Shown: one piece after another, positions 44,471-50,327 of the stretch
Numbering within the stretch: position 1 is the first letter of the stretch
How the letters are laid out: each line of letters starts with the position of its first letter
Source: Modestobacter sp. VKM Ac-2986
GTDB lineage: Bacteria; Actinomycetota; Actinomycetes; Mycobacteriales; Geodermatophilaceae
NCBI RefSeq assembly: GCF_026967795.1
Contig: NZ_JAPVBH010000001.1
Location: 186,001-250,000 of the forward strand
Direction: 5' to 3'
Length of the DNA stretch: 64,000 nt
Translations under genes and position numbers: made by a program
Notes under the pieces: generated by a model
What the model was told of the DNA's origin: nothing
Database searches by the model: none
The model's input: the letters and a program-made list of their open reading frames with translations, nothing else

Positions 44471-45862
44471 ATGACCCCTGCCGTCCCCTCCGCGCCCGGC
44501 GCCGTGCGCACCGGTCTGCGCGGCACCGCGGGGGCGCTGGTCGTGAGCGTGCTGGCCCGCACCGTGCTGGGCGCGCTCGTGCTGGCCGTGCTGGTCGCCG
44601 CCGTCCCCACGGTGGTCGGCTGGCAGGCGGCGGTGGTCACGTCCGGGTCGATGGCACCCCGGGTGCAGCCCGGGGACGTCACGGTGGCCCGGCCGGTCGA
44701 CACCTCCGACCTCGCGGCCGGGCAGGTGCTGCTCGTCGACGACCCGGACGGCGCCGGCGGACTGCTGCTGCACCGCCTGGTGTCGGTGGAGGACGGCGGT
44801 CTGCGGCTGCGGGGCGACGCCAACCCGACGGCCGACGGCTCGCTCGTCGACCCGGCAGCGGTGCACGGGGTCGCCGCCCTGCGGCTGCCCGGCCTCGGCC
44901 TGCCGGTCCTGTGGGCGGCACAGCAGCGCTGGGTGCCGCTCGGTGGCGCCGGGCTGGCGCTGGCCGCCCTGCTGGGCCTGTCGGTGCTGCACCGCCCGTC
45001 GGTCGACCAGCGGCCCGACCGGGGTCCCCGGCGGGTGCGGCGCCGGTCGGTGGCGGTCCTCGCCGTCGCCGTCCTGCTGCCGGGCACCGGGGCGGCCGCG
45101 TACGGGACCGCCGCGGCGGCCTACACCGCCGCCACGGCCAACGGGCCCGACGTGTTCCGCTCGGCGCTGTACTACACCTGCACCTCCGGGTCGGCCGGCG
45201 CGGCGCAGTACCTGGACCTCCAGGAGAGCAGCGGGACCGTCGCGCGGAACCGCGGCTCCGCCACCGGTGACGGCACCTACGCGGGCGGGGTGACGCACGG
45301 GGTGGACGGTCCACCGTGCACCGGGGCCTCGCGGGCGGTCCGGCTGGACGGCTCCTCCGGCTTCGTCCACACCGGCGTCACCGTCGCGCTGCCGCCGGGC
45401 CAGACCTTCTCCACGCAGCTGTGGTTCTCCACCACGACCACGCGCGGCGGCCACCTGATCGGCTTCGGCAACGGCACCAACGGCGCCACGTCCAGCGTCA
45501 AGGACCGGATGGTCTACATGACCACCACCGGGCACCTCCGCTTCGGCGTCTTCGACGGTGTCCCGAAGACCGTCATCTCGCCGGCGGCCTACAACGACGG
45601 GAAGTGGCACCTGGTGACCGCCACCTTCTCCACGGACACCGGCATCCGGCTCTTCGTCGACGGCTCGATCGTCGCCTCCGACGCCACGATCACGGCGGCG
45701 GAGAACAACACCGGGTACTTCCGGGCCGGTTACGACAGCCTCCAGGGGTGGCCCGACGTGCCCACCAGCCACTGGTTCGCCGGCTCCATCGCCCACCTGA
45801 GCGTCTTCGCCGGCCGGCTGACCCGCGCGGAGGTCGCCGCCCAGTACGCCGCTGCCGGCTGA
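44471..45862 (+). CDS. SipW-type signal peptidase fused to LamG domain (1)
   Basis: A 463-residue fusion. The N-terminal part is a signal peptidase I of the ER/archaeal (SipW) type: membrane helix (about 20-48), catalytic Ser60 in TSGSMAPRVQPGDV, His101 in LLLHRLVSV (where bacterial LepB has Lys) and RGDANPTAD with Asp116. Two further membrane segments (about 155-173 and 193-210) lead to an extracellular LamG/concanavalin-like domain (about 240-463; FSTQLWFSTTTTRGGHLIGF, NDGKWHLVTATF). The LamG part may bind glycans or the processed substrate (inference). ATG start. A close paralogue lies at 48915; this copy has no adjacent substrate gene. Confidence 0.85.
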   Translation: MTPAVPSAPGAVRTGLRGTAGALVVSVLARTVLGALVLAVLVAAVPTVVGWQAAVVTSGSMAPRVQPGDVTVARPVDTSDLAAGQVLLVDDPDGAGGLLLHRLVSVEDGGLRLRGDANPTADGSLVDPAAVHGVAALRLPGLGLPVLWAAQQRWVPLGGAGLALAALLGLSVLHRPSVDQRPDRGPRRVRRRSVAVLAVAVLLPGTGAAAYGTAAAAYTAATANGPDVFRSALYYTCTSGSAGAAQYLDLQESSGTVARNRGSATGDGTYAGGVTHGVDGPPCTGASRAVRLDGSSGFVHTGVTVALPPGQTFSTQLWFSTTTTRGGHLIGFGNGTNGATSSVKDRMVYMTTTGHLRFGVFDGVPKTVISPAAYNDGKWHLVTATFSTDTGIRLFVDGSIVASDATITAAENNTGYFRAGYDSLQGWPDVPTSHWFAGSIAHLSVFAGRLTRAEVAAQYAAAG

Positions 45863-45970
45863 GGACGCGGACGGCACCGTCCGTTTCCCGCCCCCAGAGG
45901 GGTGAGACAGGTTGTCCGCGATGCGCTGACCTGGGAGTCTGGCCGCCCGAGACCCCAGGAGGAGGCCCAC

Positions 45971-46522
45971 GTGGACCCCGTCGCCGTGGCCTTCCTCGCC
46001 GTCGGCGGGCTGGGTCTGCTCGTGCTCGTCGTGTCCCTGCTCGCCGGGGAGATCGCCGAGCTCGGTGACGCCGACGGCCCGTTCTCGGTACCCGCGATCG
46101 CGGCCTTCCTCGGCGGCATCGGCTTCGGCGGGGCCGCGGCGACCGCGTTGCTGCCCGAGCTGCCGGGGGCGGCCACCGTGCTGCTCGCCCTGGTCGCCGG
46201 GCTGGTGGTCGCGCTGCCGCTGGCCGCCGGCGCCGTCCGGCTGTCGGCCTCGCTGCGCGACATGCCCACCGAACCGACCCTCACCCCCGACCGGCTGCTC
46301 GGCGCCCAGGGCGTCGTCGTCAGCCGGGTCCCGGCCGGCGGGTTCGGCGAGGTGCGGCTGGCGGTCGCCGGCCAGCAGCTCAAGTACCACGCCCGCAGCG
46401 ACGTCCCGTTGCCCGCGGGCACGCCGGTCTACGTCGTCGACACCCCCACGGAGACCTCCGTGCACGTCGTCTCGACCGCCCCGGAGACGACCCCCTTCCC
46501 AGACACCGGAGGAACCCCGTGA
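45971..46522 (+). CDS. NfeD-like membrane protein
   Basis: A 183-residue short NfeD-type protein: an N-terminal helix, two or three more membrane helices (about 35-100), then a C-terminal OB-like beta domain (LLGAQGVVVSRVPAGGFGEVRL to YVVDT). NfeD proteins pair with flotillins in membrane microdomains, and this gene overlaps the flotillin gene by 4 bp (GTGA). GTG at 45971 with AGGAGGAG upstream; a longer frame upstream is not conserved. No protease domain, so it is the truncated NfeD class. Confidence 0.86.
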   Translation: MDPVAVAFLAVGGLGLLVLVVSLLAGEIAELGDADGPFSVPAIAAFLGGIGFGGAAATALLPELPGAATVLLALVAGLVVALPLAAGAVRLSASLRDMPTEPTLTPDRLLGAQGVVVSRVPAGGFGEVRLAVAGQQLKYHARSDVPLPAGTPVYVVDTPTETSVHVVSTAPETTPFPDTGGTP

Positions 46523-48096
46523 CCCTGCTCATCGCCATCGGCGGCATCGCACTGCTGGTGCTGCTGCTCGTCCTGCTCGTGCTCTCCCGGATCAAGGTCG
46601 CCGGCCCCAACCAGGCGTTCCTGGTCACCGGCCGGCAGGGCCGCTCGGTCACCAGCACCGACGGCGCGGTCAGCCGGGACATGAGCGGGCAGAAGGTGGT
46701 GATGGGGGCCAGCGTCTTCGTGCTCCCGGTCGTGCAGAAGCTGCACTCGATCGACCTGTCCAGCCGCCGGATCCCGGTCGGCATCCGCGGCGCGGTGAGC
46801 CTGCAGGGCGTCAAGTGCGACCTCGAGGGCGTGGCGATCGTCAAGGTCGGCGGCAACGAGGGCGCGATCCGGGCCGCCGCCCAGCGGTTCCTCAACCAGC
46901 AGGAGGGCATCGACACCTTCACCTCCGAGGTGCTGGCCGGTGCGCTGCGCTCCATCGTCGGGCGGCTGACGATCGAGGAGATCATCCGCGACCGGGCGGC
47001 GTTCGCCTCCGCCGTGGCCGAGGAGGCAGAGTCCTCCCTCACCGGCCAGGGCCTGGTGCTGGACACCTTCCAGCTGCAGGACATCCAGGCCGAGGGCACC
47101 TACCTCGCCGACCTGGGCCGGCCCGAGGCCGCCCGGGTGCTCAAGGAGGCCTCCATCGCCGAGGCCCGCGCCCGGCAGGCGGCGCAGCAGGAGCAGCTGC
47201 TGGCCGACGAGGCCATCGCCATCTCCCAGCGGCAGCTGGCGCTCAAGCAGGCCGAGATCGACGCGGAGATCGACGCCGCCAAGGCCCGGGCCGCCGCGGC
47301 CGGCCCGCTGAGCCAGGCCGCCCAGGACCAGGAGGTGCTGGCCGCGCAGGAGAAGGTCGCCGAGCGCACCGCCACCCTCACCCAGGCGCAGCTGGACACC
47401 AAGGTGCGCCGTCCGGCCGACGCCGAGCGCTACCGGGTGGAGCAGGAGGCCGAGGGCCGCAAGAACTCCGCGATCCTCACCGCCGAGGCCCAGCGTCAGG
47501 CCACCATCGCCGCAGCCCAGGCCGCCGCCGAGCAGGCGCGGCTGTCCGGTGAGGGTGAGCGCGCCCGCCGCAGCGCGCTCGCCGAGGCCGAGGCGATCGA
47601 GGGCGCCAAGCGCGGTGAGGCCGAGAAGCTGCGCCGTGAGGCCATCGCCGACGCCGTCGAGCGGGAGGGTGCGGCCGAGGCCGCCGCCATCCTGGCCCGC
47701 GGCAAGGCCGAGGCCGAGTCGATGGACGCCCGGTCCGACGCGTTCGCGAACTACGGCGAGGCCGCGATCCTGGACCTGCTGGTGAAGGTGCTCCCCGACG
47801 TGGTGTCCGCGGCGTCGGCCCCGCTGGCCGCGGTGGACAAGATGACGGTCATCTCCGCCGACGGCGCCGGTGCGCTGGGCCGGTCGGTCGCGGCGAACGT
47901 GGCACAGGGCATGCAGATCACCGGTGACCTCACCGGCCTGGACGTCGCCGCGATGCTGCGCCGGCTGGGCGTCGGCGCGTCCGACGGGAGCCCCGCGGCC
48001 CCGGTCACCCACGTGCCGCTGGACGGCGTGGTCCTGGACGGCGCCAGCAGCAACGGTCCCAGCAGCAACGGCGCCTCGGCCGACGGGCACCGCTGA
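46519..48096 (+). CDS. Flotillin-like SPFH protein
   Basis: A 525-residue flotillin. An N-terminal membrane hairpin (LLIAIGGIALLVLLLVLLVL) is followed by the SPFH domain (about 35-200), a long Ala/Glu/Arg coiled coil with EAEA-type repeats (about 205-430) and a C-terminal region (VLPDVVSAASAPLAAVDKMTVIS) typical of flotillins. It organises ordered membrane domains. Length is near the family norm. The last 30 residues are a Ser/Asn/Gly-rich tail. Coupled to nfeD; ends at a strong terminator. Confidence 0.92.
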   Translation: MTLLIAIGGIALLVLLLVLLVLSRIKVAGPNQAFLVTGRQGRSVTSTDGAVSRDMSGQKVVMGASVFVLPVVQKLHSIDLSSRRIPVGIRGAVSLQGVKCDLEGVAIVKVGGNEGAIRAAAQRFLNQQEGIDTFTSEVLAGALRSIVGRLTIEEIIRDRAAFASAVAEEAESSLTGQGLVLDTFQLQDIQAEGTYLADLGRPEAARVLKEASIAEARARQAAQQEQLLADEAIAISQRQLALKQAEIDAEIDAAKARAAAAGPLSQAAQDQEVLAAQEKVAERTATLTQAQLDTKVRRPADAERYRVEQEAEGRKNSAILTAEAQRQATIAAAQAAAEQARLSGEGERARRSALAEAEAIEGAKRGEAEKLRREAIADAVEREGAAEAAAILARGKAEAESMDARSDAFANYGEAAILDLLVKVLPDVVSAASAPLAAVDKMTVISADGAGALGRSVAANVAQGMQITGDLTGLDVAAMLRRLGVGASDGSPAAPVTHVPLDGVVLDGASSNGPSSNGASADGHR

Positions 48097-48111
48097 CCGC
48101 TCCGTCCCCCC

Positions 48112-48156
48112 CGCCCCACCGGGTGGCCCGGCGTCCCGAGGCCACCCGGTGGGGCG
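48112..48156 (+). terminator. Terminator of the NfeD-flotillin operon
   Basis: Perfect 16-bp arms (48112-48127/48141-48156) with a 13-nt loop, 15 bp after the stop. Confidence 0.88.
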
Positions 48157-48173
48157 TCGTCATGCCCCGGGAT

Positions 48174-48193
48174 GGTCACCCTGCGGGGTGACC
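48174..48193. promoter_or_regulatory. Palindrome upstream of the TasA-like gene
   Basis: Perfect 8-bp arms GGTCACCC-N4-GGGTGACC about 100 bp before the start codon. Possible operator for the secreted-protein operon; no regulator gene is adjacent. Confidence 0.4.
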
Positions 48194-48294
48194 GAGTCAC
48201 TCAACGTCTGCCTTGATCCGGTCGTTGCCCCTAGCGTCACTGCTGCGGGACCACCGCAGGAGCCGTTGACCCACCGACGCCGGGAGGACCGAGG

Positions 48295-48918
48295 ATGCGC
48301 AGCGCCACCGCTCGTCGCCCCAGGTCCCGCCGCGCGCGGGCCCGGCTCGCCGCGGTCGCGTCGGCCACCGGCGCCCTGCTGCTGGCCGTGACCGTGGTCT
48401 GGCAGTCGGCCTCGGCCGGCTTCACCGACTCGACGGCCGCCCTGCGGGCCACGGCGGGCGCGGCCACCATCACGCTCACCGACGACGACGCCGAGGGCCG
48501 GCTGTTCACCGTCACCGGTCTCAAGCCGGGGGACAGCGCCGGCACCCGGTGCATCGTCGTGCGCTCCACCAACTCGACCGTGGCCCCGACCGCCCGCACC
48601 TCCGACGTCCGGCTGTACGTCACCGGCGCGACCAGCACCCGGTCGCTGGCCAGCTGGCTGAACGTCGGCGTCCGGATCGGCACCGGCGGCGGCACCGCCG
48701 GCTGCACGGGTTTCCAGTCCCAGTCCCAGGTCTTCTCCGGACGCCTGGCCGACCTCCCCGCGGACAGCTGGTCGAACGGCCGGGCGTCCTGGAGTGCGCC
48801 CGCCGCCGGTCAGACGCGGACCTACGAGATCACCGTCTCCCTGGACCAGGACACCCCGCTGTCCGCCCAGGGCGGGACGGCCGGCGCGACGTTCGTCTGG
48901 GAGTCGAGGTTCTCGTGA
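48295..48918 (+). CDS. TasA/SipW-cognate-type secreted protein
   Basis: A 207-residue secreted protein. The arginine-rich start and hydrophobic core (LAAVASATGALLLAVTVVW) end in SASAGFTDSTAALRATAG, the cleavage-site pattern of proteins processed by SipW peptidases (TasA, camelysin type). The mature part is one beta-rich domain with two cysteines (C85 and C143 in outline) that could form a disulfide. TasA proteins polymerise into biofilm fibres in Bacillus; whether this one forms fibres is unknown. ATG behind GGGAGGACCGAGG. Its stop overlaps the start of the peptidase-LamG gene, its obvious processing partner. Confidence 0.78.
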   Translation: MRSATARRPRSRRARARLAAVASATGALLLAVTVVWQSASAGFTDSTAALRATAGAATITLTDDDAEGRLFTVTGLKPGDSAGTRCIVVRSTNSTVAPTARTSDVRLYVTGATSTRSLASWLNVGVRIGTGGGTAGCTGFQSQSQVFSGRLADLPADSWSNGRASWSAPAAGQTRTYEITVSLDQDTPLSAQGGTAGATFVWESRFS

Positions 48919-50327
48919 GCGCCTCCCTGCCCGCGCTCCGGGACTCCCGTGGCGCACTGGTCATCAGCGCGCTGGCCCGCACCGTCCTGGGCGCGCTGGT
49001 GCTGCTCGTGCTGGTCTCCGTCGTCCCCGCGGTGGCCGGCTGGCAGTCCACCGTCGTGATGTCCGGCTCCATGGCGCCCAGCGTCCAGCCCGGCGACGTC
49101 ACCCTGGTCCGCCCGGTGGCCACCGCCGCCCTGGAGCCCGGCCAGGTCCTGCTCGTCGACGACCCGGACGTCCCCGGTGGCCTCCGGCTGCACCGGCTGG
49201 TCGCCGTCACCGACAGCGGACTGCTCCAGCTGCGGGGCGATGCCAACGTCACCCCCGACGCCTCGCTCGTCGACGCGGCGGCGGTGCACGGCGTCGGCGC
49301 GCTGCGGCTGCCCGCCCTGGGCCTGCCCGTGGTGTGGGCCGCGGAGGGCCGCTGGCTCCCGCTGTCCGGCGCCGCACTCGCGCTGGTCGCACTGATGGGC
49401 CTGGCCCTGCTGCACCGCTCCCCCGACGACGCGCCCGACGACGCGGCGGCCGACGCGTCCCCTGGTCCTGGTGTGCCCCCGGGCGACGACGGCCCCCGGC
49501 CCCGCCGCCTCGCCCGGACGGCGGTGCGCGGGGCGACGGCCGCGTTCGTCGTGGCCGTCCTGCTGCCCACCACGGCGGTGGCGGCGTTCAGCGGGACGAC
49601 GGCCAACCACGCCAACTCCTTCGCCGCCGTCCCCTGGTTCACCTGCTCCTCGGCCGCGAGCGGTGAGTCCGCCGCTCAGTACCTCCCGCTGCAGGAGACC
49701 AGCGGCACGGTGGCGGTCAACCGCGGCAGCTACCCCGGCAACGGCACCTACGCCGGGGGCGTGACCCTCGGCGCCCCGGGACCGGCCTGCAACAGCGCCT
49801 CCCGCGCGGTGACCCTGGACGGCGCCTCCGGCTTCGTCCACACCCCCATCAACGTCGCCAACCCGCAGACCTTCAGCACCCAGCTGTGGTTCCGCACCAC
49901 CACCACCCGCGGCGGGTACCTGGTCGGCTTCGGCAACGGCACCGACGGGGACACCTCCACGACCAAGGACCGGATGGTCTACATGACCAACGCCGGCACT
50001 CTGAAGTTCGGCGTCTACCGGGGCAGTCCGCAGACGATCACCAGCCCGCGCACCTACAACGACGGCGCGTGGCACCTGGTCACCGCGACGTTCTCCCCGT
50101 GGACGGGCGCGCGGCTCTACGTGGACGGCAAGATCGTCGTCTCCAACCCCGCGATGAACGCCGCCGAGCCGGTCTCCGGGTACTTCCGGGCCGGCTACGA
50201 CAGCCTCGAGGGCTGGCCCGACATGCCGACGAGCCGGTACTTCGCCGGCTCGATCGCGCACCTGGGCATCTACGCGTCGGCCCTGACCGACGCCGAGGTG
50301 GCGGCCCAGTACGCCGCCGCCGGCTGA
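48915..50327 (+). CDS. SipW-type signal peptidase fused to LamG domain (2)
   Basis: A 470-residue paralogue of the fusion at 44471 with the same design: membrane helix, Ser52 in MSGSMAPSVQPGD, His93 in RLHRLVAV, Asp109 in LRGDANVTPD, two later membrane segments around a proline/aspartate-rich loop, and a LamG domain (about 250-470; FSTQLWFRTTTTRGGYLVGF). The GTG at 48915 overlaps the stop of the TasA-like gene by 4 bp, so peptidase and substrate are made together. An upstream-open frame exists but is a shadow of the TasA-like gene. The LamG domain is on the same side as the active site (outside), suggesting it handles or anchors the processed product. Confidence 0.86.
   Translation: MSASLPALRDSRGALVISALARTVLGALVLLVLVSVVPAVAGWQSTVVMSGSMAPSVQPGDVTLVRPVATAALEPGQVLLVDDPDVPGGLRLHRLVAVTDSGLLQLRGDANVTPDASLVDAAAVHGVGALRLPALGLPVVWAAEGRWLPLSGAALALVALMGLALLHRSPDDAPDDAAADASPGPGVPPGDDGPRPRRLARTAVRGATAAFVVAVLLPTTAVAAFSGTTANHANSFAAVPWFTCSSAASGESAAQYLPLQETSGTVAVNRGSYPGNGTYAGGVTLGAPGPACNSASRAVTLDGASGFVHTPINVANPQTFSTQLWFRTTTTRGGYLVGFGNGTDGDTSTTKDRMVYMTNAGTLKFGVYRGSPQTITSPRTYNDGAWHLVTATFSPWTGARLYVDGKIVVSNPAMNAAEPVSGYFRAGYDSLEGWPDMPTSRYFAGSIAHLGIYASALTDAEVAAQYAAAG

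Follow-up and report, generated by a model that had tools for sequence, protein, structure and literature searches.

In Bacillus subtilis, the signal peptidase SipW is a separate protein without cargo, and the SipW-TasA-TapA system sets an S26B peptidase beside a TasA-like exported protein. Mature TasA is reported to comprise residues 28-261, as confirmed by mass spectrometry (PMC6334530). In Bacillus cereus, the sipW-calY operon encodes the peptidase together with two camelysins, its substrates again being separate genes, and the accessible part of that report names no lectin-like domain (PMC10151520). Here we describe a 64,000-nucleotide stretch of the genome of Modestobacter sp. VKM Ac-2986 (contig NZ_JAPVBH010000001.1, positions 186,001 to 250,000; hereafter the window) that encodes two S26B peptidases, one of them next to a TasA-like gene. 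These share their catalytic Ser, His and Asp region with SEC11A and SEC11C of the endoplasmic reticulum (ER) signal peptidase complex. Unlike SipW, however, the window peptidases carry a LamG domain of their own, and unlike them the SEC11 chains, at 177-211 residues, have no fused cargo. Among titles and opening abstract lines from full-text searches in which subscription papers were largely missing, we found no description of S26B-LamG or other peptidase-cargo fusions.

By sequence, the two window proteins share one layout, consisting of a first helix, a Ser-His-Asp peptidase domain, a second helix, an Arg-rich linker, a third helix and a LamG domain (Table 1). We think it likely that each one combines a SipW/ER-type peptidase and its cargo in a polyprotein, in which the LamG domain would be exported by means of an internal leader and cut free as a lectin-like protein of 247 amino acids (aa). 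A first-pass annotation of the same DNA had already described two S26B peptidase-LamG proteins with LamG beyond a membrane helix, the second of them coupled through GTGA to a candidate TasA-like substrate with a SipW-type leader, in an actinobacterium. This description is borne out by the present analysis.

The catalytic Ser, His and Asp region of the fusions aligns with SEC11C and SEC11A at S26B spacing, in line with what the first-pass annotation had expected of such an alignment. These residues are invariant in 15 of 15 aligned sequences and present in 44 of 44 aligned fusions. The TIGR02228 model matches the two fusions at E about 1e-12, but at 45.5 and 47.4 bits, below its cut-off of 51.85, which two other S26B proteins of the same genome exceed. 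The LamG part scores above the Pfam cut-off for Laminin_G_3 and has a ConA-like jelly-roll fold, which an AlphaFold 2 model of fusion 2 reproduced, as the first-pass annotation had anticipated; the linker was modelled at low confidence, including a helix at residues 199-216. Among the fold matches are toxin binding domains and one domain of the arabinanase AbnA. The likeness to AbnA and other LamG/ConA-like jelly rolls is one of common fold, since there the domain is part of a secreted hydrolase whereas here, on the best reading, it would be released from the peptidase.

The product of the gene that overlaps fusion 2 is a candidate TasA-like protein with a SipW-type leader, and as such a putative trans substrate. 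Searches at E<=1 gave no match to Peptidase_M73 or to a TasA model, only weak matches to unrelated families, and none to TIGR04088 or TIGR04089; comparison of its family with sequences in the PDB yielded nothing useful. TIGR04088 and TIGR04089 are NCBIfam leader families named for SipW-type peptidases, and the corresponding upstream protein at locus L112 matches both, whereas those at L020 and L117 are without a match at E<=0.1.

The evidence for an internal leader lies in the third helix, which in both fusions has an Arg-rich start and a hydrophobic core followed by A-x-A↓A-[YF]-[ST]-x-x-T-A-N (the arrow marks the predicted cut). Across the fusions the pattern is A-x-A↓x-F-[ST]-x-x-T, like that of leaders encoded beside such peptidases, and it agrees with the pattern of SipW cargo, namely a charged start, a hydrophobic core and A-x-A↓x-aromatic. 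The register is that of TasA, which is cut two residues before the first Phe. To score such leaders without circularity, a 20-residue motif was derived by Gibbs sampling from the upstream neighbours of S26B genes alone. Of 89 such genes, 79 are preceded on the same strand by a gene for a protein of 120-300 aa, and the training set comprised the N-terminal 75 residues of 74 distinct upstream proteins. In 48 of the 51 distinct fusions scanned, the best site of the whole protein fell in the linker between peptidase and LamG, against 10.8 expected from the linker's share of positions (21%), and in 40 of the 51 the linker score was unmatched by any of 200 shuffles of the linker region. The fusions' best sites had a median score of 12.6 (12.6 in fusion 2, a weaker 6.8 in fusion 1), while the peptidase part never scored above -11.4 and the median best score of 573 other proteins of the loci was -15.9; a score of at least 4 was reached by 42/51 fusions versus 24/573 other proteins. 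This set of 51 includes L037, labelled an Acidobacteria metagenome-assembled genome (MAG), though its open frame looks broken, and leaves out L023 (Cryobacterium), where a fusion is seen by tblastn but no S26 match occurs among the called genes.

When the 51 fusions were aligned on the aromatic residue, with three anchors placed by hand, A/S/T/G stood at -4 in 50, A/S at -2 in 50, F/Y/W at 0 in 48 and T/S at +4 in 47; the residues before the third helix are Arg-rich, with acidic residues nearly absent. The internal leader and the neighbour's leader of one locus are more alike than leaders across loci (permutation, 0.0002). Production of free LamG from an internal translation start was considered and rejected: the linkers of the two window fusions each have two internal GTG codons, none with a Shine-Dalgarno-like sequence.

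Relatives of the fusions show the cargo in other states. The LamG part has its leader internally in the window proteins, and N-terminally only at separate-gene loci: at five of these, in two families (L102-L106), the peptidase lacks LamG and the next same-strand gene encodes a LamG protein with a leader ahead of the LamG domain, the leader pattern being plain in L102, L104 and L105. L188 is a sixth locus with a separate LamG gene. L101 was dropped as a candidate, as two N in its linker make the reading frame uncertain, and the Actinomyces stretches L034 and L036 were rejected, having LamG matches only, in long surface-type proteins, and no S26 within the stretch. The peptidase of L111 has three Big_7 Ig-like stretches after its leader, where its sister L117 (support 99/90) has LamG, and two LamG domains are found in four fusions (L147, L150, L151 and L152), one of them ended by the contig end. 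A case of loss comes from the window genome itself. L153:4314-5879, a 521-aa fusion from the same genus, retains both LamG and the motif Tyr; its counterpart L039:6052-6792 (contig C14; 246 aa by the called start) has no LamG, but keeps the peptidase, the leader helix, a short tail and the upstream TasA-like gene, with Asp at the position of the motif Tyr. This comparison implies that LamG can be lost while the peptidase and the upstream TasA-like gene are kept, and that the motif has decayed in L039. Given a leader-type helix and motif, separate LamG proteins with leaders, other cargo in relatives and the loss of LamG in L039, it is more probable that the LamG domain is a second substrate, produced in cis, than that it serves as a receptor tethered to the enzyme.

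A second group of peptidases has a comparable organization. A census of the class found S26B genes at E<=1e-8 in 119 of 394 genomes, and from it 40 further stretches were picked by hand. These include a second operon type, in which genes for exported proteins are followed by a short and then a long S26B gene. In 22 of 26 long non-LamG proteins, the motif built from their own upstream genes had its best site within 110 residues past the peptidase; judged by eye, 17 of those 22 (307-679 aa) have real leaders and five look like chance. The second group uses a second leader dialect, an aromatic followed mostly by T/S-D: with motifs derived from both upstream sets, the first dialect was preferred by 49 of the 51 LamG-type internal leaders and the second by 16 of the 17 non-LamG ones. 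A quick tree placed the 17 on one side of a branch (Shimodaira-Hasegawa-like approximate likelihood ratio test, SH-aLRT, 95), with the LamG fusions apart, so that few independent events lie behind the dialect split. Cargo in this group includes Ig-like domains, above cut-off in L166:6789-8828 and one below cut-off in L201.

Near-full-length matches to the query occur in at least 18 of the family's 112 genomes, one match containing an in-frame stop, and in at least 11 of the 394 from the class; fusions are found in Modestobacter, Geodermatophilus, Frigoribacterium, Cryobacterium, Flexivirga, Nakamurella and an Intrasporangiaceae MAG. A genome-wide peptidase count, which the first-pass annotation had called for, gave six S26B genes at E<1e-8 in the window genome, the counts resting on searches: three LamG fusions, L039, L041 and L042. 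The S26B gene of L041 is followed by a second TasA-like gene; that of L042 lies beside a camelysin-type gene (PF12389, 1.6e-15), as in sipW-calY. Over 50 fusions, peptidase and LamG distances are correlated (Spearman 0.76, a value reached in 0 of 500 permutations), as inheritance of the fusion would lead one to expect.

The first-pass annotation had proposed a peptidase and matrix-type system in which LamG serves as the peptidase's own binding domain. Its architecture has stood, while the role given to LamG is no longer the favoured reading. For LamG to stay on the peptidase as a carbohydrate- or substrate-binding domain, the third helix would have to be a plain anchor, and the fusion of LamG past a membrane helix, together with its resemblance to a domain of AbnA, would suit this; the correlated distances would fit joint function, and joint inheritance equally. 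Yet a cleavage-type motif is kept after what is a leader-like helix, separate LamG proteins bear leaders of their own, cargo is swapped or different in relatives and the peptidase is kept after LamG loss in L039, all of which makes a tethered LamG quite improbable. Release of LamG through its internal leader by signal peptidase I or another S26B enzyme, with the fused peptidase confined to TasA-like proteins in trans, would agree with A-x-A at P3/P1, which fits signal peptidase I, and with the six S26B genes of the genome. We consider it unlikely, as the residues past A-x-A follow the dialect of local neighbours and the leaders are more alike within a locus than across loci, although descent is still a factor in both. 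That the motif has been kept while pairwise peptidase identity among fusions falls as low as 21%, and the aromatic lies anywhere from 30 to 160 residues past the end of the peptidase, makes it very unlikely that the internal leader is a relic of a past gene fusion that is cut no longer, even if the joining of a LamG gene with a leader to a peptidase gene would leave a trace of this kind and weak motifs are seen in L160, L018 and L019.

Several observations nonetheless weigh against a polyprotein that releases its own cargo. The A-x-A sites equally fit ordinary signal peptidase I, and descent confounds the resemblance between internal leaders and those of their neighbours, as the two dialects coincide with two groups on the tree. 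The 51 fusions include several close relatives and are thus non-independent; in three of them the best motif site lies elsewhere and in three more it scores below 0 at the right place, while the 24 of 573 other proteins that score at least 4 look, near the top, mostly like N-terminal leaders. Among the separate LamG proteins, the leaders of L105 and L106 score below 0, and the aromatic is replaced by A in L103 and by L in L106. The five separate-gene peptidases group together in a single clade (100/100), remote from the main clade of fused ones, and the peptidase tree requires six changes of the fused state, so that separate LamG genes represent a parallel arrangement rather than the ancestor. 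The 17 leaders of the second group were picked by eye from 26. Finally, the model of fusion 2 has a predicted local distance difference test score (pLDDT) <50 over residues 186-239, and is uninformative on how the cut site meets the active site.

If each fusion is indeed a polyprotein, its chain would span the membrane with three helices, of which the third would serve as an internal signal and carry LamG over. The S26B site would cut after A-x-A on the outer face, in cis or by a neighbouring copy, whereupon LamG would leave and the peptidase would stay in the membrane with the leader as its third helix. The enzyme encoded at 48915 would in addition process the TasA-like protein encoded by the overlapping 48295 gene, and LamG, made 1:1 with the enzyme, would be the lesser component alongside an abundant TasA-like fibre. 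Binding of LamG to matrix polysaccharide is a guess from its fold, and roles in fibre and matrix would follow by parallel with Bacillus.

Of 88 stretches scanned with a short sequence pattern, 8 contain a flotillin-like gene together with a fusion gene (one genome twice), namely the window, L016 (= L141), L030, L143, L146, L148 and L149, and an NfeD-like gene adjoins the flotillin-like gene in the window, L016/L141, L030, L148 and L149. TasA of B. subtilis is reported to associate with detergent-resistant membrane, and the distribution of FloT is altered when TasA is missing (PMC7171179); flotillin microdomains may therefore be linked to TasA-type export outside Bacillus as well.

Other proteins of interest were seen at related loci. 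Some, of 250-350 aa, bear SipW-type leaders, are encoded a few kb away from the peptidase gene (L121:7792-8844, L124:59-1111, L125:7732-8499 and others) and are possible extra substrates. In two S26B proteins (L136:4030-5202 and L139:4118-5305) the C-terminal part opens with an ordinary-looking leader and has a sortase-signal-like end (L139 against the LAVTG model: 22.4 bits, cut-off 27); if wall-sorted, this part must be cut from the peptidase. L040:6181-10749, on contig C11 of the window genome, encodes a surface-type protein of 1522 aa whose LamG is related to that of the fusions; by eye, the neighbouring genes resemble polysaccharide genes, and long proteins of a similar kind occur in Actinomyces L034 and L036. 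Operons with a short and then a long S26B gene and two or three exported proteins were observed at L166-L175, L179, L194 and L199, the next gene in several being, by eye, what we take to be pdxT, and one exported protein (L166:9443-10090) weakly matches Gram_pos_anchor at 17.1 bits (cut-off 20). The peptidase proteins of L183, L187 and L192 match DUF5305 (L187 at 29.7 bits, cut-off 29; L183 and L192 below it) and have a further hydrophobic stretch but no SipW-type leader, which is another architecture.

Table 1 Features of the peptidase-LamG region (positions in the window; cleavage sites and released products are predictions)
Feature	Position	Strand	Details
Fusion 1, S26B signal peptidase + internal SipW-type leader + LamG	44471..45862	+	463 aa
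Fusion 1 catalytic Ser60 codon (SGSM)	44648..44650	+	alignment with 48915 and SEC11
Fusion 1 catalytic His101 codon	44771..44773	+	alignment with 48915 and SEC11
Fusion 1 third helix, putative internal leader, residues 194-216	45050..45118	+	predicted cut A216↓A217
Fusion 1 predicted released LamG cargo	45119..45859	+	247 aa, 25.5 kDa, 2 Cys
NfeD-like membrane protein, neighbour, recurs near fusions	45971..46522	+	PF01957 20.8 bits, below cut-off 29.1
Flotillin-like (SPFH) protein, neighbour, recurs near fusions	46519..48096	+	NF058507 2.5e-71 (below its cut-off), Band_7 5.5e-24
TasA-like exported protein, trans substrate candidate	48295..48918	+	predicted leader cut A41↓G42 (nt 48417↓48418)
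Fusion 2, S26B signal peptidase + internal SipW-type leader + LamG	48915..50327	+	470 aa; GTGA overlap with 48295 gene
Fusion 2 catalytic Ser52 codon	49068..49070	+	alignment with SEC11C/SEC11A
Fusion 2 catalytic His93 codon	49191..49193	+	alignment with SEC11C/SEC11A
Fusion 2 Asp109 codon (GDAN)	49239..49241	+	Asp115 likewise invariant
Fusion 2 third helix, putative internal leader to P1 Ala223, residues 206-223	49530..49583	+	predicted cut A223↓A224, VLLPTTAVA↓AFSGTTANHANSF
Fusion 2 predicted released LamG cargo	49584..50324	+	247 aa, 25.7 kDa, 2 Cys

A bolder scheme, which we regard as rather doubtful as a whole, would have the peptidase born with its first substrate in its own chain and the leader in or near its active site. 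Release in cis would free one lectin and open the enzyme for the TasA-like protein, the matrix lectin being exported before the fibre, and the scheme would be a general actinobacterial one with exchangeable cargo (LamG, double LamG, Ig-like repeats and others). If true, the polyprotein reading would place a signal peptidase and its substrate in one bacterial chain, fixing their ratio, and would tie the export of a matrix lectin to a fibre-maturing enzyme. It would also make sense of actinobacterial signal peptidases whose C-terminal half has had no explanation, and offer a simple cis-cleavage system in which to study SipW specificity, where leader dialects and a loss of the cargo occur naturally.

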